Part shown: in pieces, positions 47,646-59,706 of the stretch
How positions within the stretch are numbered: position 1 is the stretch's first letter
Layout of the letters: every line of letters starts with the position of its first letter
Assembly: GCF_029887935.1 (NCBI RefSeq)
Contig: NZ_JARXRO010000020.1
Coordinates: 342,591 to 406,590, forward strand
Direction: 5' to 3'
Source: Luteimonas kalidii
Lineage (GTDB): Bacteria; Pseudomonadota; Gammaproteobacteria; Xanthomonadales; Xanthomonadaceae
Length of the DNA: 64,000 nt
Program-made: the position numbers and the translations under genes
Notes under the pieces: generated by a model
Databases searched by the model: none
What the model was told of the DNA's origin: nothing
The model's input: the letters and a program-made list of their open reading frames with translations, nothing else

Positions 47646-50318
47646 ATGCCAGCACGGGACGCAGCACAGGCGCACGGCGAGATCGGCGCAGATCAGGCCG
47701 GCGCACGCGGATGGCCGTCCAGCTCGCTTCTGTGGGCGCTGGCGTTGCTGCTGCTGGGCCTGCTGGGCACGGCGGCGATCGCGCGTCACGAGTGGGCGCA
47801 GCAGCAGCGGCGAGCCGAGTCGCTGCAGCAGGCATTGGCGAGTGCGGCGCAGTCGCGCATGCGCCAGCCGCTGCAGGGCGCGGCGATGGTGCTGCGCTCG
47901 ATGCAGACCGTGTTCCTGTCCAGCAAGGGCATGAACCAGCAGGAGTTCGCCCACTACCAGCACAACCTGCGTCCGCACGAGTTGGCGCAGGGCTACGTGC
48001 TCACCGCCTTCGCGCAGCGCCAGGCCAGCTCCGACCCTCCCGGGCCGGACGCGTATCGCTACCAGTTCGTGGCGCCGCTGGACGGAAACGAGGTCCTGCT
48101 CGGCTTCGATATCAGCCGGCAGCCGGAAAACCTGCGGGCACTGCAGCTGGCGCGCGACCGCGACCTGCCGACCGCGTCGGCACCGTTCCAGCTGCTGCAG
48201 TTCGAGGGTGGGGCGGACAGCGCGCTGGGGATCACCGTGCGCCTGCCGGTCTATTCCCACGGCACGGTTCCGCTGACGGTGGCCGAACGCCGGGCCCGCG
48301 AGATCGGCGCGCTGGCAGTCAGCCTGCGGCTGGAGCCGATGATCACCCGGGCGCTGGAGGGCCGGATCCTGGATGACATGCACGTGCAGATCCGCGATCT
48401 GGACGCGCCGCCGGGCCAGGACCTGGTCTTCGCCTCCGCGCAGCCCGATGCGGATCGCACGCAGCAGGTGCGGAAAATGGATTTCGGCGGCCGCCGCTGG
48501 GAGATGCGCCTGTGGCCACGCGGGGACACCGCCGAATGGGGGCCGCTGCGCGCGATCCTCGTCGCCGGCACCACGATCAGCGTGCTGCTGGCGCTGCTGC
48601 TGTGGTCGCAGATGACCACCCGGCAGCGTGCGGTGGAGCTGGGGCGACGGATGAGCCTGCGCTTCGGCGAAAGCGAAGCGCGCTTTCGCACCCTCAACGA
48701 GCTGCTGCCGGCGCTGGTGCTGCTGGCCAACGGCGATGGCAGCCGGATCACCTACGCCAACCAGGCGTCCCGCGAGTTGCTCGGCGATGTGGTGGGGCTG
48801 CCCCTGTGCGCGCTGTTCGCCAGCATCAGTGCCTGCGAGGACGCCATCGCCATGGCGACGGGCGGCAGTGGCTGGCGCAGCCAGGAAGCCATGCTGGCCC
48901 CGGCGGGCTTCGCCCCGTTCTGGATCAATGCGTCGCTGGCGCAGGTGGAGGTGGAGGGCGTTCCACACCTGCTGATGGTCGCCACGGATACCAGTGCGCA
49001 GCGTGCGATGACCGAGCGTCTGCATTACCAGGCCACCCACGACGAGCTGACCGGGCTGCTCAATCGTCGCGAGTTCGAGCGGCTGCTGCGCGAAGCGCTG
49101 GCCGGCCATGACGGGGCTGCGGCGCCCGTGCCGTTTGCGCTGCTGTACTTCGACCTGGACCAGTTCAAGCTGATCAACGATCTGTCCGGGCACGCGGCGG
49201 GCGACCAGTTGCTGGTGCAGCTGGTGCGGGCGATGCGCGCCGAACTCGGGCCCGGCAGCATCCTGGCCCGGCTGGGCGGAGACGAGTTCGGCGTGCTGGC
49301 GCCCGGCGTGGACCTGGCACGGGCCGAAGCGCTGGCCGAGCGCATCCGCCGCGCCATCGAGCGGCACACCTTCCGCTGGTTCGAACGCACCTACACGCTC
49401 AGCGCCAGCATCGGCCTGGTCATGGTCGAGGGCAAGGGCGACACGCTCAAGGACCTGCTGGCCTGGGCCGACAGTGCGTGCTACCAGGCCAAGGAACGCG
49501 GGCGCAACCGCGTGTGCACGTATCGCGACGATGCCGCCAGCACCCACCGCATCGGGGAGATGGAGTGGGCCAACCGCCTGCGCGGGGCGCTGGAGCAGGG
49601 GCATCTGCTGCTCGACTACCAGGAGCTGGTGGCGCTGGACCCGGCGGCGGATGCCGGGGTGCATGTGGAACTGCTGCTGCGCCTACGCGACCCTGCTGGC
49701 GGCGTGATCCTGCCCGGCGCGTTCATCGGCGCAGCCGAGCGCTACGGGCTGATGCCGGCCGTGGACCGCTGGGTGATCCGGACCGCGCTGGCCAACTTCT
49801 CGCGGCTGCATCCGGGCGGCGCGCAGCTGCACAGCTGTGCGATCAATCTGTCCGGTGCCAGCGTCGAGGACGACGGCCTGGCGGACTTCATCCTCGATGC
49901 GGTGGCCACGTTCGGGGTGCCGCCGCAGCGGCTGTGTTTCGAGATCACCGAAACGGTGGCGGTGCGCGATCTGCAGCGCGTCGCCCAGGTGATCGAGCGC
50001 CTGCGCGCGGCCGGATGCCGGATCGCGCTGGATGATTTCGGCGCCGGCATGTCCTCGTTCGGTTACCTGAAGAACCTGCCGGTGGACAGCATCAAGATCG
50101 ACGGCAGCTTCGTGCGCGACCTGGGGCGCGACCCGGTCAGCCGCATCATCGTCGATGCGGTGACCCGGATCGGCCACGAGCGCCGGCTGCAGGTGCTCGC
50201 GGAATGGGTGGAGGAGGAGAGCGTGCTGTCGGTGCTGCGCGAGCTCGGCGTGGACTATGCCCAGGGCTTCCTGCTGCATCGGCCCGAGCGGGTGGTGTTC
50301 CAGCGTGACGTTGCATGA
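47646..50318 (+). CDS. CHASE-PAS-GGDEF-EAL c-di-GMP signalling protein
   Basis: The 890-residue membrane protein has a transmembrane helix at about 28-46, a periplasmic CHASE domain (about 70-300) and a second helix (about 305-325). A PAS domain (about 345-440), a GGDEF domain (about 450-615) with an intact LGGDEFG motif, and an EAL domain (about 625-880) follow. In the EAL domain the signature reads VELLLRL rather than EALLR, but ITETVA, DDFGAG, KIDGSFV and GVDYAQGF are present, so phosphodiesterase activity is likely. It would both make and break c-di-GMP in response to an external ligand. Confidence 0.95.
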
Positions 50319-50368
50319 GCGCCCTATACTCGTGGGCCCGCAGACCATCCACCCCAAGGACCCGGACC

Positions 50369-50797
50369 ATGACCGATCGCAGCCGCCGAGACCTCCTCCT
50401 CGCCGCCACCGCCCTGGCGGTCGGCGCGACCGCCACCGGCGCCCGCGCGGCCGCGTCCACGCCCGCCAGCAAGGCATCGTTCCCGCCGGTCGTGCACCAC
50501 GTGTTCTTCTGGCTGAAGAATCCGGAGTCCAGCGAGGATCTCGCCGCACTGCTCGCCGGCCTGCGCACGCTGGCGGGCATCGACACCGTGCGGGGCATCC
50601 ACATCGGCGTGCCGGCGGATACCGAGCAGCGCGGCGTCGTCGACGGCAGCTACAGCGCCTCGGAGCTGCTGTTCTTCGACGACGTCGCCGGGCAGAACGC
50701 GTACCAGGTCCATCCCATCCACAAGCAGTTCGTCGCCGACTGCGAGCACCTGTGGGAGCGGGTGGTGGTGTATGACGTCAAGGCTGTCGCGCCGTAA
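50369..50797 (+). CDS. Tat-exported Dabb (stress-responsive alpha/beta barrel) domain protein
   Basis: The 142-residue product has a twin-arginine signal ([17 protein letters not shown]). It has a Dabb-type alpha/beta barrel domain (about 45-140), with [14 protein letters not shown] near the start and [24 protein letters not shown] near the end. It is 50 bases downstream of the GGDEF-EAL gene. The function of most members is unknown. AAGGA precedes the ATG. Confidence 0.88.
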
Positions 50798-50884
50798 CTC
50801 ATTCGCTCCCGGAAAGTGGCGGGTACATCCTGTGCGTCGCGCCGCGGCACGCATCCAGCGACTCAGCCTGGGGCGGTGGCTCGC

Positions 50885-50919
50885 GACGGAGGGAATTTAC
50901 TTGCTCAGTTCCCTCCGTC
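50885..50919. repeat. Inverted repeat at the left end of the accessory island
   Basis: GACGGAGGGAA and TTCCCTCCGTC form a perfect 11-bp inverted repeat with a 13-base AT-rich loop. The right arm extended by one base, TTCCCTCCGTCC (50909-50920), recurs in direct orientation at 54025-54036. GC content falls at this point. Confidence 0.75.
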
Positions 50920-51001
50920 CTCTTTAGATCTTTAAGTATGCTCTTTGTGGTCTCCATTCAGTTTTGCCGCGATTGATTGAACTGCTTCTGGGAGGCTCAC
51001 C

Positions 51002-51580
51002 GTGCCAAGCGTTTTCTTCTCCTACTCACATGCTGACGAGATCTTGCGGAATCAGCTAGAAAAGCAACTCTCCATGCTCAAACGTCAGGGCGTGATTGAA
51101 ACTTGGCATGACCGACGCATCGGCGCCGGCCAACACATTGACGCTATCATCGACCAGCACATCAACAGAGACGAAATTATTCTCTTGCTGGTCAGCCCCG
51201 ATTTCGTCGACTCTGACTATTGCTACAACATCGAGATGAAACGCGCCTTAGAGCGTCACGAAGCGGGCGAAGCAATCGTAATTCCTGTCATCCTGCGTCA
51301 TTGCGACTGGCATGACGCTCCGTTCGGAAAGCTTATGGCAACGCCACCTGACGGCAAGCCCGTTAAGGCCTGGCCAGACATCGATGAGGCTTTCCTGCAT
51401 GTGGTAAAAGCAGTGCGTGAAGCAGCGCAGCGCTGTGGTACGGCTTCTGGTCACGCGCGGAGTACCAAGATCCCACTCCCCGCCCGAGCCCACGCTCGTC
51501 TCCACAACACCTGGACCAAGATCCAGCAATCTCCGTCTTGCGAAGTCGTTTACTCAGATGGACAAGGACCGTTTTCGTGA
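51002..51580 (+). CDS. TIR-domain protein, N-terminal part of a frameshifted gene
   Basis: It starts with GTG after GGGAGG. Residues 2-139 are a bacterial TIR domain: VFFSYSHADEILRNQLEKQL, WHDRRIGAG, and LLLVSPDFVDSDYCYNIEM with the probable catalytic Glu78. Such TIR domains cleave NAD or make signalling nucleotides during phage defence. After about residue 140 the frame turns into unlike sequence and ends at 51580. The +1 frame carries a continuation (PRSSNLRL...) of the C-terminal domain usual for this TIR family. A single-base change near 51417-51485 (a CTCCCC run is there) would restore a protein of about 323 residues. A mutation, a sequencing error or programmed frameshifting could explain this. 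Confidence 0.85.
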   Translation: MPSVFFSYSHADEILRNQLEKQLSMLKRQGVIETWHDRRIGAGQHIDAIIDQHINRDEIILLLVSPDFVDSDYCYNIEMKRALERHEAGEAIVIPVILRHCDWHDAPFGKLMATPPDGKPVKAWPDIDEAFLHVVKAVREAAQRCGTASGHARSTKIPLPARAHARLHNTWTKIQQSPSCEVVYSDGQGPFS

Positions 51581-51971
51581 TGAGACGTTCGAATACATCT
51601 CGCGCTACTTCGATAATTCGCTATCAGAGCTCAGCGAACGGAACACTGGCTATGAAGGAGTGTTCCGTCGCGTTGATGCCAACAGATTCTTCGCCACCAT
51701 CTACAAGGATGGGCAAGATGTTGCGCGCGCCACCATTTACATGGGTGGCATTCTCGGCAGTGGTATTAACTACATTCAAGGCCAGACCACGACAGAGAGC
51801 TCACTCAACGAGTCCCTCACAGTAGATGCTGATGATCAGTCCCTGTATCTGACCAGCCTTGGCATGAGTTCTTTCGTACATGCGCGCGGCCAGAAGCTCT
51901 CCCAGGAGGGGGCTGCTGAACTCCTATGGGGCCTAGTGATGCAGCCACTACAACAGCGCAGCACCTGGTAG
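51558..51971 (+). CDS. C-terminal domain of the TIR protein, out of frame
   Basis: The frame can be read from 51417; the first internal ATG gives 137 residues and overlaps the TIR frame by 23 bases. No ribosome-binding site precedes this ATG. The sequence MDKDRFRDETFEYISRYFDNSLSEL, the middle ANRFFATIYKDGQDVARATIYMGG and the end EGAAELLWGLVMQPLQQR match, from memory, the domain that follows TIR in many single-chain TIR proteins. I therefore read it as the separated second half of the same gene, though it could be translated alone by reinitiation. Function unknown, probably a sensor or oligomerisation domain. Confidence 0.65.
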   Translation: MDKDRFRDETFEYISRYFDNSLSELSERNTGYEGVFRRVDANRFFATIYKDGQDVARATIYMGGILGSGINYIQGQTTTESSLNESLTVDADDQSLYLTSLGMSSFVHARGQKLSQEGAAELLWGLVMQPLQQRSTW

Positions 51972-51980
51972 GAGGTGGAA

Positions 51981-52451
51981 ATGTTGGGCGCAGAAGAGTT
52001 CTCAGTAGGAACGATTGGCGACGCAACACCGCTGGCGCTGATCCTTCCTCGCAACGAGCACGAGCCGACGGCCCTGATTGGACGTGCCACACAAGGCGAT
52101 GCTCGTGCCATCTTCTTTCTTGATGACAGGAACCTGTTCAAGTCTTTCGAGTGCGCAGGAAACAGCCATTGGACCGGGTTACAGATCCAAGGCGTGAGGA
52201 TCGAAGTTGACGAAACCAGCGCTTTTGATCCGGAACGACAATGGCCCAAAGCCGGCTGCGTACTCCGGCAGTCCACACAACTGCTCGCTGTGGCGGCAGG
52301 AAACTTCCAATCCTCACGTGGAACAGAACTTGTTCTGCTTGTAGACGATCTGGCACCAGCGTCTCATAAGGCAGCCTTCTCGCGCTGGCAGATCAGCCTT
52401 GGCCAGGGCTTCGAAAAACGGGTTTTACACAGTATTGATGCGGACAAGTAG
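51981..52451 (+). CDS. Unknown protein coupled to the TIR gene
   Basis: The 156-residue product starts nine bases after the preceding stop, with AGGAGG at the right distance; a GTG two codons earlier is an alternative. It is predicted mixed alpha/beta: ALIGRATQGDARAIFFLDDRNLFKSFECAGN, TGLQIQGVRIEVDET and TELVLLVDDLAPASHK. No family is recognised. The spacing makes it the second gene of a TIR operon and thus a candidate partner or regulator. Codon use is less GC-rich than the chromosome. Confidence 0.7.
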   Translation: MLGAEEFSVGTIGDATPLALILPRNEHEPTALIGRATQGDARAIFFLDDRNLFKSFECAGNSHWTGLQIQGVRIEVDETSAFDPERQWPKAGCVLRQSTQLLAVAAGNFQSSRGTELVLLVDDLAPASHKAAFSRWQISLGQGFEKRVLHSIDADK

Positions 52452-52491
52452 GTTTCCCTCCATTTGGGCTTTCCCTGCTCTCACCAAGAAG

Positions 52492-53229
52492 CTATCCACG
52501 AAACGCGGGCACATAGATGTATCCCTCATCCACACTTCCAAACACTTGGTCTCGCTGCCCAGCTTGGTAGAGCGCACCGATATACATGCAGATGATCGCA
52601 TCCAACATATCCTCGTTTCGCTTGAGCTCGCGCCCGACCAAATGCTGGATATGATCCGGCTCAACCTGCCTTCTAACGTCATCGGGCACATGGAGAGGCA
52701 GCAGGCTAGATGTCGCCAGGGAGCAGATAAGCCTGCCAAGTTCTATCTGTCCGACTCGCTTTTGGCCGACTGTCCCCTTCTTGTATGGCAGTCTTTCGCG
52801 CAACCCGAAGATCTCGATCAGCGCGGGATGCGGGTAGCACTCCAGCTGCCAACGCTGGCCCGTCGGGCCTAGGTGCCTGAACCCGAGTCGCTCAAGGTGG
52901 TTGGAGAGCACTACGCCGTCGGAATTAGGGTATCTGGCCAAGCTTGATGCATGGCATGAAGCCTTCCTGCCACCATACGCACACCCAAGCTCTCGCTCGC
53001 AGGCGCGCATTCCGACCTCGTTTGAGATAACGAGCGGCGCGTCAATCGCCACCCCGTGCAGGTCCGGAACACACCTCAGGGCTTCAATGACCGCGCCGAT
53101 GCCGTAGTGGTCTCCGGAAACCGAGTGGAGAATTACCGAGTTCCCTGCAATCCGACCAATCGCAAGTGCCGTCGGGTTGCGCGTACCCAGCCATGCCAAG
53201 TCCACACCGGCAATTATTCGATCGCCCAT
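52492..53229 (-). CDS. DUF429-type predicted RNase H-like nuclease
   Basis: The 245-residue protein has the RNase H-like fold: IIAGVDLAWLGTRNPTALAIG (first strand, Asp), GVAIDAPLVIS (second acidic site), and ECYPHPALIEIFGL, followed by EDMLDAIICMYIGAL with the last acidic residue. This is the DUF429 pattern, predicted nucleases or phosphatases of unknown role. It is converging on the TIR operon and lies three bases after the gene upstream (53233-53952). Confidence 0.82.
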   Translation of the reverse strand: MGDRIIAGVDLAWLGTRNPTALAIGRIAGNSVILHSVSGDHYGIGAVIEALRCVPDLHGVAIDAPLVISNEVGMRACERELGCAYGGRKASCHASSLARYPNSDGVVLSNHLERLGFRHLGPTGQRWQLECYPHPALIEIFGLRERLPYKKGTVGQKRVGQIELGRLICSLATSSLLPLHVPDDVRRQVEPDHIQHLVGRELKRNEDMLDAIICMYIGALYQAGQRDQVFGSVDEGYIYVPAFRG

Positions 53230-53232
53230 CGT

Positions 53233-53952
53233 CTAAACTACTGACGCGACTTGGCGGTCCGTCGCCGGCTCGCACGTGACCCAGCCAAGATACAGGGTTG
53301 GGCCCGTCGTGCGCGGAACCTTCGCCAGCTGTCCATCTGACACGGTCGCCCCTAAAGCCGCGCCGAAAGCGATGTAGTCCGTAAGCGATACAGGATCCGA
53401 CCGGAACGACTGGACGATCATCACCGCGTGCGCGGCTCCGAAGCGTTCTGCCTCGATGAGCGCCGACGCAGTGCGATGGAAAAGCTGGTACCGAAGTGCG
53501 TGGTCGGGAGGATGCTGCGCACCGAGCACTTTGCACAGGTGCTGCAGACGCGCCAGCTTGCCGGGCGAGGCGTCTCGCAGCCAGTCCCACAGCGGATCCC
53601 CGAACGTTTCACCCGCCTTTCCTTCCACGGACATCGATACGTATCCGCCCGGCGTTTTCAGCAGTGCCCAGACGTCGTTTTGCGAGGCTTTGCCACGCCC
53701 TTCCAGCTTGACCTTATGCTCCGGTAGTACGATCAAGGCAGTCGCGCTTGCCAGCTGTTCCTGCGTATCGAGCAGCGCCACGATCGGCGCGGGTATGCCG
53801 CGCTCGGAGTGCCTGGCCGCCTCCCAAGACACCGCAGTCTCGAACGCCGATGCGCCCCGTACCCAGTGCTTTTCCGGATCGGCCAGCAGTTGGCGCCAGG
53901 CCGATGGGCCACAAGACGGAATGAGTATTCGTGTCACAGGCTTCTCCCCCAT
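53233..53952 (-). CDS. Unknown protein, DUF6946-like, linked to DUF429
   Basis: The 239-residue protein opens with ILIPSCGPSAWRQLLADPEKHWVRGASAFETAVSWEAA, a pattern I associate, by memory, with DUF6946. It contains VSMSVEGKAGETFGDPLWDW, an E-x-K context that could be a PD-(D/E)XK nuclease core. It is probably translated with the DUF429 gene, three bases downstream. A function in nucleic-acid metabolism or defence is possible but unproven. Confidence 0.6.
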   Translation of the reverse strand: MGEKPVTRILIPSCGPSAWRQLLADPEKHWVRGASAFETAVSWEAARHSERGIPAPIVALLDTQEQLASATALIVLPEHKVKLEGRGKASQNDVWALLKTPGGYVSMSVEGKAGETFGDPLWDWLRDASPGKLARLQHLCKVLGAQHPPDHALRYQLFHRTASALIEAERFGAAHAVMIVQSFRSDPVSLTDYIAFGAALGATVSDGQLAKVPRTTGPTLYLGWVTCEPATDRQVASVV

Positions 53953-54020
53953 GCAGACGTCTCGTTCCCGGACGGATCAGCGGGACCCAGGTCGGTGTCG
54001 ATTGGCCCGCGACGCGAGGA

Positions 54021-55478
54021 TTAATTCCCTCCGTCCCCTTTTGGCGGTCGAGCGCGTGGCGCTTTATTGGCAGGCCTTCTCTTTGATGGTTGGCGAACTG
54101 TTGCGGCTATCTTCCCGCCGGCACGCTCACTTGCTTCCTCGCTGTAAGGTTCGCCGTAAATTTCTTGATAAGTTGAGTAAAAATCTTCTCGCTGTCTAAA
54201 TTTCTCGAAGAGCGGCCAAGCATGATAAGCGGCTTGGTCAAGCATCTCTCCTGACCTTCCTATCTCTCTCATCAGATCGATCGCTTGATCGTAGTCTTCC
54301 TGTAAGACAAGCAGTGCTAGCTTGAAGTCACGATAGCTGGCAGTCCAGTCAACAGATGCCAGAATATCTCTAGCTGCATCGTCTTTGTCAGAAAACTTCT
54401 TCGCAATTGCCGTGTTTATTAATCTTACGCGGTAGTCGAGTTCGCTGAGGTCCTTCTTCATCGGTGCTGTCAAGGAAAACTCTCCGAAGTCAGATGCTGT
54501 TCTCCATCTTTTGTCCTCGAGTGCTTGGTAGAGCAGGGCATTGATGGATTCGTGCACATCAGCAGCCTCTGCAGGAAAAACTTTCATCCAGAGGGTATGG
54601 CAAAGCATAAATCCAACCTTTGACATGACGCGGAGCATTCCCGCTAGGTCTGCGGGGGAGACTCCAAGTTGATGGCCAGGTCGAATCGTCGGGTCGATTT
54701 TGCAAGATTCGCGAGTGCAAACAGAAATGTACTGCTCATTTACAACCCCGTCGTTGTGCGCGAGCAAGTTCCTTCTCTGACTAAATTCAACGAAAAGCGG
54801 CCATTCATCGAATTTTCTAAGCGGGAGTCCGAACTTCTTTTCGAGCTGAGAGAACTGTTCGATATAACTGTCGCGCCGGAAAGAGTCGATCTCCTTTTCC
54901 AGCATTGCGCGACTTGCTGATTCAATATCAGAAAATTCCAAGAGATCGACTAGGGTAATCTCCCTAGAAATTCCTTTCAGAAGTTCGAAGTTCTTGAGAT
55001 ATATTTGCTTTAGTAGCCTCCCTATAAATGCATCGAATACGCAGAATCCTTGCATAAATAGGCTTCTGGCGAGTAGTGGGACACTATTGTCTTCAAGGAG
55101 TCGATGTTGTTTTGCCATTGCGGCGGAGAACTCCACGAAGTCTCTGGCGTTATCGAAGATGATTTCCAAGCCCTCGTGTGGGTCTTCATCGACGAACGCC
55201 TCAATTTTCCTTCGAGTTTTTTCGATCTCGTTCCTTTGCCAAGTCGCGAGATGCGGAAGCACGACCTGTGTTGTCTGAAATATATTCCAGATCGACTCTA
55301 AGTATGTCCTTATGACCACATGTAGTTCTGGGAGGGCGGGTTCAGCATCTTCTAGGTGATCAGGTAGCTCGGCTTTCGCCGTCGCTTTCTGCCTCTTTTG
55401 CGGGGCAGGTGCGATCCCTTTGCCTTTGGTTCCCGTGCTTCCCTTGTTGCTTTTACCAGTATTCTCGACAGCTGCCAT
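54021..55478 (-). CDS. RX4H (HEPN-type) motif protein, function unknown
   Basis: The 485-residue protein has a basic, low-complexity start (about 1-40). An all-helical body follows with EFSQRRNLLAHNDGVVNEQY (about 231-250), where Arg236-N-L-L-A-His241 is an RX4H motif typical of HEPN ribonuclease domains of toxin/abortive infection proteins. The C-terminus is basic and ends GDGGN, coded by the same bases that form the direct repeat at 54025-54036. The gene has atypical, AT-rich codon use. It stands alone, with a terminator separating it from nrdJb. No partner antitoxin is adjacent. Confidence 0.72.
   Translation of the reverse strand: MAAVENTGKSNKGSTGTKGKGIAPAPQKRQKATAKAELPDHLEDAEPALPELHVVIRTYLESIWNIFQTTQVVLPHLATWQRNEIEKTRRKIEAFVDEDPHEGLEIIFDNARDFVEFSAAMAKQHRLLEDNSVPLLARSLFMQGFCVFDAFIGRLLKQIYLKNFELLKGISREITLVDLLEFSDIESASRAMLEKEIDSFRRDSYIEQFSQLEKKFGLPLRKFDEWPLFVEFSQRRNLLAHNDGVVNEQYISVCTRESCKIDPTIRPGHQLGVSPADLAGMLRVMSKVGFMLCHTLWMKVFPAEAADVHESINALLYQALEDKRWRTASDFGEFSLTAPMKKDLSELDYRVRLINTAIAKKFSDKDDAARDILASVDWTASYRDFKLALLVLQEDYDQAIDLMREIGRSGEMLDQAAYHAWPLFEKFRQREDFYSTYQEIYGEPYSEEASERAGGKIAATVRQPSKRRPANKAPRARPPKGDGGN
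54025..54036. repeat. Direct repeat TTCCCTCCGTCC, right copy
   Basis: The 12 bases repeat those at 50909-50920 in the same orientation. The copy lies in the last codons of the HEPN-type gene. It may be the right boundary of an inserted segment of about 3.1 kb. Confidence 0.55.
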
Positions 55479-55522
55479 TCCGTCGTCCCCTTCTTTTGAA
55501 CTGCCAGGTGACCATGCTCAAG

Positions 55523-55556
55523 AAAAAGGCCAGGTTCATTTCTGAACAACTGGCCT
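55523..55556 (-). terminator. Intrinsic terminator of nrdJb
   Basis: On the minus strand AGGCCAG, an inner TGAAC/GTTCA stem and CTGGCCT are followed by TTTT. It is about 35 bases after the nrdJb stop and separates it from the HEPN-type gene. Confidence 0.88.
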
Positions 55557-55590
55557 CTCCGCCTTTCCGCACGCAACGATCTCACTCATC

Positions 55591-56373
55591 TCACCCGCAC
55601 TTGCTATACCCACAATTCAAACAGGTCGCACATCCGTCCATCAGCACCAGCGCCTTGGTGCTGCACTTGTGGCACATGCTGGCGGAGGGCGGGAACGAGG
55701 CGCCGTCGCCGGTGACTTCGATGTCGCCGACGGGCTCGGGGTAGCCGGGGTCTTCGGGGGTGGCGTCTACGTCAGAGTTTTTTTTTGACTGCTGTTCGTA
55801 GGCGCGGCGCTTCTCGGCGATCAGGGCCTTCTGCGCGGGGCTCATCTGCGGGTCGTGCAGCATGCCGATCTGCTTGAGGTGGTCCTCGACGATGCTGCCC
55901 AGTTCGGCCACCAGGCTGGGCATGTACACGCCGCCGGCCTTGAAGTAGCCGCCCTTGGGGTCGAACACGGCCTTCATCTCTTCCACCAGGAAGGTCACGT
56001 CGCCGCCCTTGCGGAACACGGCGCTCATGATGCGGGTGAGCGCGACGATCCACTGGAAATGCTCCATCGACTTGGAGTTGATGAAGATCTCGAACGGGCG
56101 GCGGTGCTCGTGCTCGGTGCCGGCGTTGAGCACGATGTCGTTGATGGTCACGTACATGGCGTGCTCCACCAGCGGCGACTTGATCTTGTAGGTGCTGCCG
56201 ATCAGCACCTCGGGGCGCTCGATGCGCTCGTGCATCTGGATCACGTCGGCGGTCTTGGGCAGCTCGGCCTCCACCTGCTCGCGCGGCACGGACGCGGCCT
56301 TCACGGCCTTCTCCTTGTCCTCGGGGGTGACGACGGCATAACCCGTGATTTTCTTGTCGATCTTGACGGCCAT
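55591..56373 (-). CDS. nrdJb: Class II ribonucleotide reductase, NrdJb subunit
   Basis: The 260-residue protein matches the C-terminal part of split B12-dependent ribonucleotide reductases as in Pseudomonas aeruginosa NrdJb. It has an N-terminal TSCPD-like domain (EHEHRRPFEIFINSKSMEHFQW, GGDVTFLVEEMKAVFDPKGG). A C-terminal zinc ribbon (about 234-260; CHKCSTKALV, CATCLNCGYSKCG) probably carries the redox cysteines that re-reduce the active site of NrdJa. The histone H1-like gene separates it from nrdJa, in contrast to the adjacent genes in Pseudomonas. Confidence 0.93.
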   Translation of the reverse strand: MAVKIDKKITGYAVVTPEDKEKAVKAASVPREQVEAELPKTADVIQMHERIERPEVLIGSTYKIKSPLVEHAMYVTINDIVLNAGTEHEHRRPFEIFINSKSMEHFQWIVALTRIMSAVFRKGGDVTFLVEEMKAVFDPKGGYFKAGGVYMPSLVAELGSIVEDHLKQIGMLHDPQMSPAQKALIAEKRRAYEQQSKKNSDVDATPEDPGYPEPVGDIEVTGDGASFPPSASMCHKCSTKALVLMDGCATCLNCGYSKCG

Positions 56374-56491: not shown

Positions 56492-57022
56492 TTACTTCTT
56501 CTTCGCCGCCTTCTTGGCGGTCGCTTTCTTCGCCGGCGCCTTCTTCGCTGCGGCCTTCTTCGCCGGCGCCTTCTTCGCCGTGGCCTTCTTGCCGGCCTGC
56601 TTCATGGTCTTCTTCGCGGGGGCCTTCTTGGCCGCCGCCTTCTTCGCGGGCGCCTTGCGGGCCGGGGCCTTCTTCGCGCTCGCCTTCTTCGCAGGCGCCT
56701 TTTTGGCCGCGGCCTTCTTCGCCGGTGCCTTCTTGCTGGACTTCTTCGCGGCGGTCTTGCCGGTCTTGGCCTTCAGTGCGGCCACTTCGCGCTTGCCGGC
56801 GGCACTGGTGCTGGCCAGGGACTTCTTGGCCGCGGCCACGCGCTGGCCCACTGCCTTCCTCGCCTTGCCCGCCGTGGTGGCGGCCCGGGCGGCGGTCTTC
56901 TTCGCGCTGGTGACGGCGCTGCTGGCCTTCTCCGCCACGGTCTTGCCGATGTCCTTGGCCGTCTCGGCGACGGATTCGGCGGCGTGGGTCAGGGTCTGTG
57001 CGACCCCGTTGCCGTTGCTCAT
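56492..57022 (-). CDS. Histone H1-like DNA-binding protein
   Basis: The 176-residue protein has an Ala-rich helical N-terminal part (about 1-80). Its C-terminal half is built of [17 protein letters not shown] repeats ending AKKAAKKK. Such bacterial H1-like proteins bind DNA non-specifically and compact it. GAGGA precedes the ATG at 57022. It lies between nrdJb and nrdJa, on the same strand. Confidence 0.93.
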
Positions 57023-57150
57023 GGGTGTGTCCTCGTCAGTTTGCTTTTTTTCGGTGATCGGGTTACGGGCCAAAGTGCCCGTGGGCGAAATATGGAGCGC
57101 GAAGTGCGCGCTACGCAAGCAAAACCGCGAGGGGGTGTGCCCCCACCCCG

Positions 57151-57289: not shown

Positions 57290-59440
57290 TCAGAACTTTC
57301 CGTAGTAGCCCTCTTTCAGGGCATCGAACAGGTTGGCGGCGGTGTGGGTCTCGCCGTCGTATTCGATCTGCTCGTTGCCCTTGACCTCGATGGTGCTGCC
57401 GTCGTCCAGCTCGAAGCGGTAGGTGGTGTTGGCCAGGTCCGTCTCCTTGACCAGCACGCCCTGGAAGGCGGCCGGGTTGAAGCGGAACGTGGTGCAGCCC
57501 TTCAGCCCCTGCTGGTAGGCGTAGCGGTAGATGTCCTTGAAGTCCTCGTAGGGGTAGTCGGTGGGGACGTTCGCGGTCTTGGAGATGGACGAGTCCACCC
57601 ACACCTGCGCGGCGGCCTGCACGTCGACGTGCTCCTTCGGGGTGATGTCGTCGGCGGAGATGAAATAGTCCGGCAGCTGCGCGTCGGGCGCCTCGGAGAA
57701 CGGCATCGCCTTGGGGTTGACCAGCTCGCGGTAGGCCAGCAGCTCGTACGACCAGACGTCCACCTTCTCCTTGGACTTCTTGCCTTCGCGGATCACGTTG
57801 CGGCTGTAGTGGTGGGCGAAGCTGGGCTCGATGCCGTTGGAGGCGTTGTTGGCCAGGCTCAGCGAGATGGTGCCGGTGGGCGCGATCGAGCTGTGGTGGG
57901 TGAAGCGCGCGCCGGTCTCGGCCAGCTGTTCGACCAGCTCGGGCGCGACTTCGGCGATCTTCTGCATGTAGCGGCTGTAGCGCGCGTGCAGCACCTTGCC
58001 CTCGATCTTCTGGCCCAGGCGCCAGCCGTCCTTCGCCATCTCCGGGCGCTTGCGCAGCATGGCGGCGGTGACCTCGAACTGCTCGTCCATGATCGGGGCC
58101 GGGCCCTTTTCCTGGGCCAGCGTGAGGCCGGTTTCCCAGCCGGCCACCGCCATCTCGCGGGCGATGCGGCTGGTGAACTCGCAACTGGCCGACGAGCCGT
58201 ACTTCATCTGCAGCATCGTCACCGTGCTGCCCAGGCCCAGGAAGCCCATGCCGTGGCGGCGCTTGCGCATGATCTCGGCCTGCTGCTGCGGCAGCGGCAG
58301 GCCGTTCACCTCGACCACGTTGTCGAGCATGCGGGTGAACACGCGCACGACTTCCTTGTATTCCTCCCAGTCGAAGGACGCCTGGTCGGTGAAGGGGTCG
58401 CGCACGAACTTGGTCAGGTTGACCGAACCCAGCAGGCAGGCGCCGTAGGGCGGCAGCGGCTGCTCGCCGCAGGGGTTGGTGGCGCGGATGGTCTCGCACC
58501 ACCAGTTGTTGTTCATCTCGTTGACCTTGTCGATCAGGATGAACCCCGGCTCGGCGTAGTCGTAGGTCGAGACCATGATCATGTCCCACAGGTGCCGGGC
58601 CTTGATGTGGCCGTAGACCTTGCAGGCCACCATGCCGTCGTCGCGGCTGATGTAGCCGTCGCTGTGCGGCCAGTCGCGCCAGGTGACGGTGTCGGCATCG
58701 GTGAAGTCGATGTCGCCGGCTTCCTTGTCGCTGATCGGGAACACCAGCGGCCACTCGGCGTCGTGTTCCACCGCGTCCATGAAGCCGTCGGTGATCAGCA
58801 GGCTCAGGTTGAACTGGCGCAGGCGCCCGTCCTCGCGCTTGGCGCGGATGAAGTCGCGCACGTCCGGATGGCTGACGTCGAAGGTGCCCATCTGCGCGCC
58901 GCGGCGGCCGCCGGCGCTTGATACGGTGAAGCACATCTTGTCGTAGATATCCATGAAGGACATCGGACCCGACGTGTACGCGCCGGCGCCGGCGACGAAC
59001 GCGCCGCGCGGGCGCAGCGTGCTGAATTCATAGCCGATGCCGCAGCCTGCCTTGAGCGTCAGCCCGGCCTCGTGGACCTTGTCCAGGATGCCGTCCATCG
59101 AATCGGTGATGGTGCCGCTGACGGTGCAGTTGATGGTGCTGGTGGCGGGCTTGTGCTCGAGCGCGCCGGCGTTGGACGTGATGCGGCCGGCGGGGATCGC
59201 CCCGCGGCGCAGCGCCCACAGGAACCGCTCGTTCCAGTACTTCTGCTTCTCCGGGGTGGCCTCGGCCTCGGACAGCGCGCGGGCGACACGCTGGTAGGTG
59301 CCGTCGATGTCGGCATCCACCGGCTCCCCGTGCTTGGTCTTGAGCCGGTACTTCTTGTCCCAGATGTCCTGCGAGGCGGGCTGCATCGGGATCTCCCGCT
59401 GGGCGGGCGTCTTCACTGCTTCCAGACGAACGGTGCTCAT
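57290..59440 (-). CDS. nrdJa: Class II (adenosylcobalamin-dependent) ribonucleotide reductase, NrdJa
   Basis: The 716-residue catalytic subunit reduces ribonucleotides to deoxyribonucleotides by a radical made from adenosylcobalamin. The pattern is that of class II enzymes: TSTINCTVSGT (N-terminal redox Cys), GCGIGYEFSTLRP, NPCGEQPLPPYGACLLGSVNLT (thiyl-radical Cys and Glu) and HHSSIAPTGTISL. It ends at YYGKF without the C-terminal domain, which is provided by NrdJb. Start MSTVRLEAV is preceded by GGAGAGGAGATGG; the frame is open further upstream but without similarity. Confidence 0.96.
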   Translation of the reverse strand: MSTVRLEAVKTPAQREIPMQPASQDIWDKKYRLKTKHGEPVDADIDGTYQRVARALSEAEATPEKQKYWNERFLWALRRGAIPAGRITSNAGALEHKPATSTINCTVSGTITDSMDGILDKVHEAGLTLKAGCGIGYEFSTLRPRGAFVAGAGAYTSGPMSFMDIYDKMCFTVSSAGGRRGAQMGTFDVSHPDVRDFIRAKREDGRLRQFNLSLLITDGFMDAVEHDAEWPLVFPISDKEAGDIDFTDADTVTWRDWPHSDGYISRDDGMVACKVYGHIKARHLWDMIMVSTYDYAEPGFILIDKVNEMNNNWWCETIRATNPCGEQPLPPYGACLLGSVNLTKFVRDPFTDQASFDWEEYKEVVRVFTRMLDNVVEVNGLPLPQQQAEIMRKRRHGMGFLGLGSTVTMLQMKYGSSASCEFTSRIAREMAVAGWETGLTLAQEKGPAPIMDEQFEVTAAMLRKRPEMAKDGWRLGQKIEGKVLHARYSRYMQKIAEVAPELVEQLAETGARFTHHSSIAPTGTISLSLANNASNGIEPSFAHHYSRNVIREGKKSKEKVDVWSYELLAYRELVNPKAMPFSEAPDAQLPDYFISADDITPKEHVDVQAAAQVWVDSSISKTANVPTDYPYEDFKDIYRYAYQQGLKGCTTFRFNPAAFQGVLVKETDLANTTYRFELDDGSTIEVKGNEQIEYDGETHTAANLFDALKEGYYGKF

Positions 59441-59706
59441 GCGTCTGCCATCTCCTCTCCGGCCAGGGTACGTGCCGCGGCCTGTTGTTGTTATGGGTGG
59501 AATCGAATCGGGGCGATGCCGCCGGCCCGGGGGTCCGGGCGTGGCGACGGGTCGGTGGCGGTCACGCGGGCGCGCGTCCGCCGAAGGGTTGCGGGATGCC
59601 GGTTGTGCTGCGCGGTGTCGCCATTGCGCGTCCCCTGTCGCCTCGGCTGCCGGGTCTGCCGCGGGTCGTCCAAACCCCATGCCTTGGGCTTGTTACGACG
59701 GGCTGA

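Follow-up and report, generated by a model that had tools for sequence, protein, structure and literature searches.

A putative defence hotspot in Luteimonas kalidii, read as modular and as seeded with TIRYT-type terminal repeats

Here, we take up a few kilobases (kb) within 64,000 nucleotides of DNA from Luteimonas kalidii (we call this whole stretch, contig NZ_JARXRO010000020.1, positions 342,591 to 406,590, the window), where a TIR-domain gene, a DUF429 gene and a gene for a HEPN-like protein lie close to two copies of the 12-mer TTCCCTCCGTCC. An initial annotation had read positions 50885 to 54036 as one accessory island, inserted at a specific site and bracketed by that repeat. We argue that the locus is most probably a modular defence hotspot seeded with the terminal repeats of TIRYT-type transposase elements, and not one inserted island. 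In other words, the repeat-bracketed island becomes a question that can be put to the test: do TIRYT elements, which are common and little understood, help to assemble defence hotspots?

The features of the locus, from left to right, are as follows (G414 is a genome of the same genus).

50315-50797, + strand: Dabb-domain gene (Pfam PF07876, 1.5e-17), which bounds the hotspot on the left; six relatives of the same genus keep it next to the variable interval
50882-50922, no strand: two inverted copies of the TIRYT-type terminal repeat in hairpin form, with the left 12-mer inside at 50909-50920
51002-51580, + strand: TIR gene, first part, with the TIR domain (TIR_2, 1.7e-14; PDLC00420 positions 1-149, 5.5e-82)
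51558-51971, + strand: TIR gene, second part, in another frame (PDLC00420 positions 184-317, 5e-48)
51975-52451, + strand: ORF3, conserved partner of the TIR gene (TIR upstream in 19/19 loci); predicted all-beta
52492-53229, - strand: DUF429 gene, candidate PDC-S44 (Pfam, 2.7e-15; PADLOC, 2.9e-64)
53233-53952, - strand: DUF6946 gene, DUF family (Pfam PF22187, 5e-70); within the 97.7% block shared with G414
54021-55478, - strand: HEPN-like gene, 485 amino acids; R236-x4-H241 in 5/5 proteins; last codons supplied by the repeat
54023-54038, - strand: solitary exact terminal repeat, 0 mismatches; holds the right 12-mer, 54025-54036
55591-56373, - strand: TSCPD-domain gene, right border of the hotspot (Pfam PF12637, 1.1e-07); in 43/52 same-genus genomes

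A variable interval and its separate modules

The variable region extends from about 50797/50930 to 55520/55591, and we compared it with relatives by way of the flanking genes, which gave 22 loci (two of them ended by contig ends) from the 43 TSCPD-bearing genomes among 52 of the genus. Six of the 22 (G123, G028, G414, G416, G409 and G438) have both the Dabb and the TSCPD gene, and the interval between the two, about 4.8 kb in the window, comes to 5.4, 4.5, 4.7, 2.5, 0.9 and 4.7 kb, respectively. Its contents vary among these six and differ from the window's: the interval holds an AAA/STAND-like gene in G123, another TIR gene plus a CBS gene in G028 and a DUF6988 gene in G414, while the single gene of G409 is a homologue of G414's DUF6988 gene at 69% identity. 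G414 alone has any of the window's island genes. This genome, the nearest to the window by TSCPD (98%), holds a block that matches window 52479-54029 (DUF429-DUF6946) at 97.7% identity, and the TIR gene, ORF3 and the HEPN-like gene are all absent from its interval, so the bracket 50909-54036 did not arrive as one unit. The homology with G414 ends within the right repeat, at 54029; immediately beyond the other end of the shared block, G414 has a stretch that, by eye, resembles the repeat with 3 mismatches. What lies between Dabb and TSCPD/nrdJ is a hotspot of gene turnover, and the turnover is modular.

Some of what the initial annotation said of the region held up: guanine-plus-cytosine content (G+C) is indeed lower, at 0.542, 0.609 and 0.485 at the locus versus 0.689 leftward, and no integrase or transposase family is among the Pfam matches of the genes scanned in 50315-56373. 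The bracket as an island border did not survive, since the gene of lowest G+C (54021-55478) falls outside it and the variable region runs beyond it; nor did the alignment that had been proposed yield an empty site with a single repeat, for none was found among the six relatives with both flanks, in which the shortest interval (0.9 kb) still has its one gene. Farther right, window 57290-59680 is what we take to be NrdJ, and between TSCPD and this nrdJ-like gene, at 56492-57118, lies a lysine/alanine-repeat, histone H1-like gene whose conservation is far below that of its neighbours.

Do the genes in the interval belong together? TIR domains act by consuming NAD+ or by producing a signal. Both TIR frames of the window align to one ThsB-labelled PADLOC model (PDLC00420, 319 amino acids), and 18 of 19 distinct relatives have a single open frame of 311-335 codons from the match start (the exception, L184, has a stop after 22 codons), so that the TIR gene here is broken or mis-sequenced. 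The TIR operon of the initial annotation thus keeps its Pfam-supported TIR domain, while the operon comes down to a single TIR gene, split over two frames, and ORF3. A scan that began from ORF3, and that is silent on TIR genes without it, gave 20 loci, of which L099 and L185 coincide, leaving 19 distinct ones. A same-strand TIR gene lies upstream of ORF3 in all 19; the gap is -3 to 11 bases long in 11 loci and 236-295 in seven, and could not be measured in L184. Judged by gene order, then, TIR and ORF3 are a pair. The predicted structure of ORF3 (predicted local distance difference test, pLDDT, 89.3; predicted template modelling score, pTM, 0.83) is all-beta, and a structural search with the model gave no significant fold match; the TIR gene with this conserved partner is the module that we would single out for testing. 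In Rhodobacterales, a very large gene often follows TIR-ORF3 directly (L102 4456-8444; L183 4441-8442, where at least 1333 amino acids are visible), and it has no match in Pfam or PADLOC.

Pfam confirms the other two genes of the former island, DUF429 and, beside it, DUF6946. The DUF429 protein matches PDC-S44 (PDLC05019) at 2.9e-64 over model positions 9-249 of 259, and DUF6946 scores above cut-off in two of 299 genomes of the order, our own included. DUF429 was found near DUF6946 in none of six other relatives examined, and none of the 19 distinct TIR-ORF3 loci has DUF429, DUF6946 or a HEPN-like gene in the sequence examined; by this comparison of gene content, the island genes do not form one system. 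Outside the window, the DUF429-DUF6946 pairing was seen in G414 alone, and we, like the initial annotation, found no system name for this composition.

The HEPN-like protein has relatives in three of 368 other genomes of the class. A Pfam scan of it gave no HEPN match, and its single-sequence structure model (pLDDT 40.7) is unusable. R-x4-6-H is the mark of HEPN RNases, and R236-x4-H241 is invariant in five of five aligned proteins. In Nostoc, a relative, a type IIG restriction-methylation gene and a helicase form a row, and in Crinalium a relative stands beside a type I restriction gene. The PDC-S44 match, the ThsB model and the invariant R-x4-H support an accessory, defence-leaning region without a recognised integrase, which is the part of the annotated defence island that we would keep; the single insertion we would not.

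The repeat and the transposases it flanks

The two 12-mers, both on the same strand, and the exact 11-base-pair inverted repeat that the left one forms with GACGGAGGGAA (50885-50895), are exactly where the initial annotation had put them, and the right copy does lie in the 3' end of the HEPN-like gene, where it encodes the final residues KGDGGN*. Direct 12-base-pair repeats no more than 4 kb apart are not unusual in the window (335 distinct 12-mers), but just two of them fall within 50800-55600. The whole genome (3.96 Mb, 20 contigs) has four copies of this 12-mer, two of them at the locus and the other two 906 bases from each other on contig C12, and its reversed control occurs once. As to the doubt raised at the outset, that the 12-mer might be a common repeat, its own genome has these four copies, and the 12-mer is a dispersed mobile-element end.

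The repeat is better described as a 16-mer, GGGGACGGAGGGAATT, to which the right copy is identical and from which both arms of the hairpin pair at 50882-50922 differ by 2 mismatches each. Exact copies occur in 13 of 149 same-family genomes, our own included (the reversed pattern in none), and a related genome has up to 11 of them. At the loci examined, 96 copies with at most 2 mismatches stand alone, as hairpin pairs with a short spacer, on the flanks of Y1_Tnp genes or in clusters.

It is the genes beside these copies that give the repeat its identity. In five same-family genomes a Y1/HUH transposase gene lies within about 1.3 kb of the motif. Three of them have the motif on both flanks of the gene, as exact inverted copies in L081 and as copies with 0-2 mismatches in L085 and L097. 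In L080 an exact copy lies at the gene's 3' end, and a degenerate copy can be made out by eye upstream; in L089 a 150-amino-acid Y1 frame has an exact copy upstream and the inverted copy about 1.3 kb downstream. Two of the five Y1 proteins were scanned against NCBIfam REP_Tyr_transpos and scored 83.0, which passes the cut-off of 80, and 73.3, which is below it. More generally, an inverted GGGG[AT]C pair (at least 16 nucleotides) occurs at the own flanks of nine of 30 Y1 loci versus 23 of 870 crossed flank pairs, and in direct orientation at three of 30. In PMC3733652 and PMC6006769 (subclass 2.1), such elements are called TIRtrons and their enzymes TIRYTs, and their terminal repeats share GGGGWSAS and occur as dimers and in clusters. 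The sister repeats GGGGTCAG and GGGGACAG match that consensus at 8/8 positions. We identify the repeated 12-mer as the core of the terminal inverted repeats that TIRYT-type Y1/HUH transposase elements carry, a known kind of sequence; with the end of a mobile element scattered in the hotspot, the stretch is a patchwork rather than one island with paired ends.

No intact cognate TIRYT element was recognised in the window's own genome. On contig C11 (L006 1921-1936), a copy with 3 mismatches in 16 lies upstream of the genome's own Y1_Tnp gene; this may be an element of the same kind that has decayed. The C12 copies of the 12-mer, with the sequence AAAAGGGGACGGAGGGAATT, belong to a second accessory locus (L005 4845-10251) next to an 893-amino-acid gene with HSDR_N, AAA and S1 matches; this locus has four repeat copies (0-2 mismatches), several GGGGTCAG-type repeats and a 210-amino-acid gene that ends, like the HEPN-like gene, in KGDGGN. 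The motif provides the last codons of this gene, of a 276-amino-acid gene in G416 (KGDGVN) and of others.

How concentrated are the repeats? Eight 14-base repeat cores, allowed at most one mismatch, were counted in seven hotspots and outside them, and there were 24 matches in 27,473 hotspot bases versus three in the 101,696 others (reversed patterns, 0 in both). The count is partly circular, since the cores include the present motif, which came to notice in this very hotspot, and a near variant. Without both GGGGACGGAGG cores, there are 12 matches in hotspots versus two outside, and G028 contributes eight of the 12; this different species has a cluster of eight GGGGTCAG-type repeats in the same hotspot (L014 876-2600). 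We found no description of such a concentration among hotspot accessory genes in the open-licence literature.

Weighing the explanations

The history that we favour would run as follows. The hotspot would have collected separate small modules (the TIR gene with ORF3, DUF429 with DUF6946, and the HEPN-like gene), and TIRYT elements would have seeded it with solitary and paired repeats, some intergenic and others making up the 3' ends of genes. The modules would then turn over by exchange through the conserved flanks and by rearrangement at the repeats, perhaps with help from TIRYTs active in ancestors or in trans. The modules may serve in phage defence, with TIR as an NAD-consuming or signal-making effector, ORF3 as a sensor or regulator and the HEPN-like protein as an RNase.

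Might plain homologous exchange do all of this, the whole interval being swapped by recombination in the conserved flanks and the repeats being passengers? Relatives do keep the flanks while the interval is replaced, and the interval has no recognised integrase, but G414 shares the inner 52479-54029 without the neighbours on either side, so that exchange must also have occurred within the interval, and the repeats are concentrated there (24 matches versus three). We regard exchange alone as possible, if on the doubtful side. A site-specific island, with a 12-base-pair attachment duplication, had in its favour two identical 12-mers, one at the 3' end of a gene; the want of an empty site, the lowest-G+C gene beyond the bracket and a motif that flanks Y1 genes in other genera leave it scarcely credible, and the comparison with G414, which has the inner block alone, contradicts it. 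To see the repeats as simply transcription terminators would explain why the paired form makes a hairpin of complementary arms, frequently followed by T's, and why copies are frequent at gene 3' ends, but not why the 16-mer is found in more than one genus and on either side of Y1 genes, or why solitary copies have no second arm; as a full account it is very improbable, although terminator use of the paired copies is compatible with a TIRYT-seeded hotspot.

There remain the arrays, which invite a bolder idea, that of cargo-carrying TIRtrons, whose TIRYT transposases, acting in trans, would move repeat-bounded gene cassettes as single-strand elements and stack them. G123 has three copies of a 434-base-pair unit with a 93-amino-acid frame; they are 96-99.5% identical, and every one of them ends at the repeat plus TTTAGATC; several genes terminate in the repeat; and the G414 homology stops within the right repeat, with the 3-mismatch copy just beyond the block's other end. 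The outside flank is duplicated, together with the start of the repeat, beside 11 of 72 copies and the inside flank beside two of 72 (controls: 0-2 of 72 at offsets of at least 20 nucleotides; offset 10, which takes in part of the same structures, gave eight of 72). Short locus-specific flanks in tandem with the first repeat bases can be seen at L089 8960-9015, L150 9003-9045, L080 9987-10035 and L085 12491-12530; such tandem flanks are perhaps the footprint of repeated insertion at the same place. Insertion step by step at repeat ends already in place would leave such duplications, but tandem units could arise by unequal exchange between repeats as well. Against the cassettes stand, too, the 19 other TIR-ORF3 loci without an adjoining repeat, the lack of a recognised active cognate transposase in the genome itself and the fact that no excision or insertion of a single cassette was observed. 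We think cargo-carrying TIRtrons unlikely, and it is just as unlikely that TIRYT capture and stacking of defence cassettes amounts to an integron-like single-strand-DNA system independent of a tyrosine recombinase.

The modular hotspot seeded by TIRYT elements has its own difficulties, and we set them down together. GGGGACGG matches the published GGGGWSAS at seven of eight positions; the own genome's single Y1_Tnp gene has one degenerate upstream copy, its inverted partner not found; the density cores were in part chosen from this very hotspot; and none of the 19 distinct TIR-ORF3 loci elsewhere has repeats of these cores. The TIR module, its gene in two frames, may be inactive, at least here, and the phage-defence role of the modules is putative.

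Likeness to described systems

Several parts of this locus resemble something already described. The TIR gene fits the ThsB-labelled model of Thoeris, here in two frames; a PADLOC scan of the six island genes gave no ThsA match, and the conserved partner is ORF3. The DUF429 protein matches PDC-S44, a PADLOC phage-defence candidate and only a candidate, over its full length, whereas its neighbour here is DUF6946, a pairing otherwise seen in G414 alone. With integron cassette arrays the hotspot has in common one repeat that separates genes, and tandem cassette copies in G123, but the repeat is that of a Y1 transposase family and no integron integrase was recognised at the hotspot.

As for the repeat, REP/RAYT systems (PMC2817692) share with it the transposase family (REP_Tyr_transpos), inverted flanking repeats and an intergenic scatter of copies, but the repeat here has no GTAG-type head and no palindrome within one copy, and its copies per genome are few. 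In TIRYT/TIRtron elements, the difference is that the repeats here lie among hotspot accessory genes and that no intact cognate element was recognised in the genome; the likeness is a Y1/HUH gene between inverted repeats that start with GGGG[AT]C, and dimers and clusters of those repeats as well.

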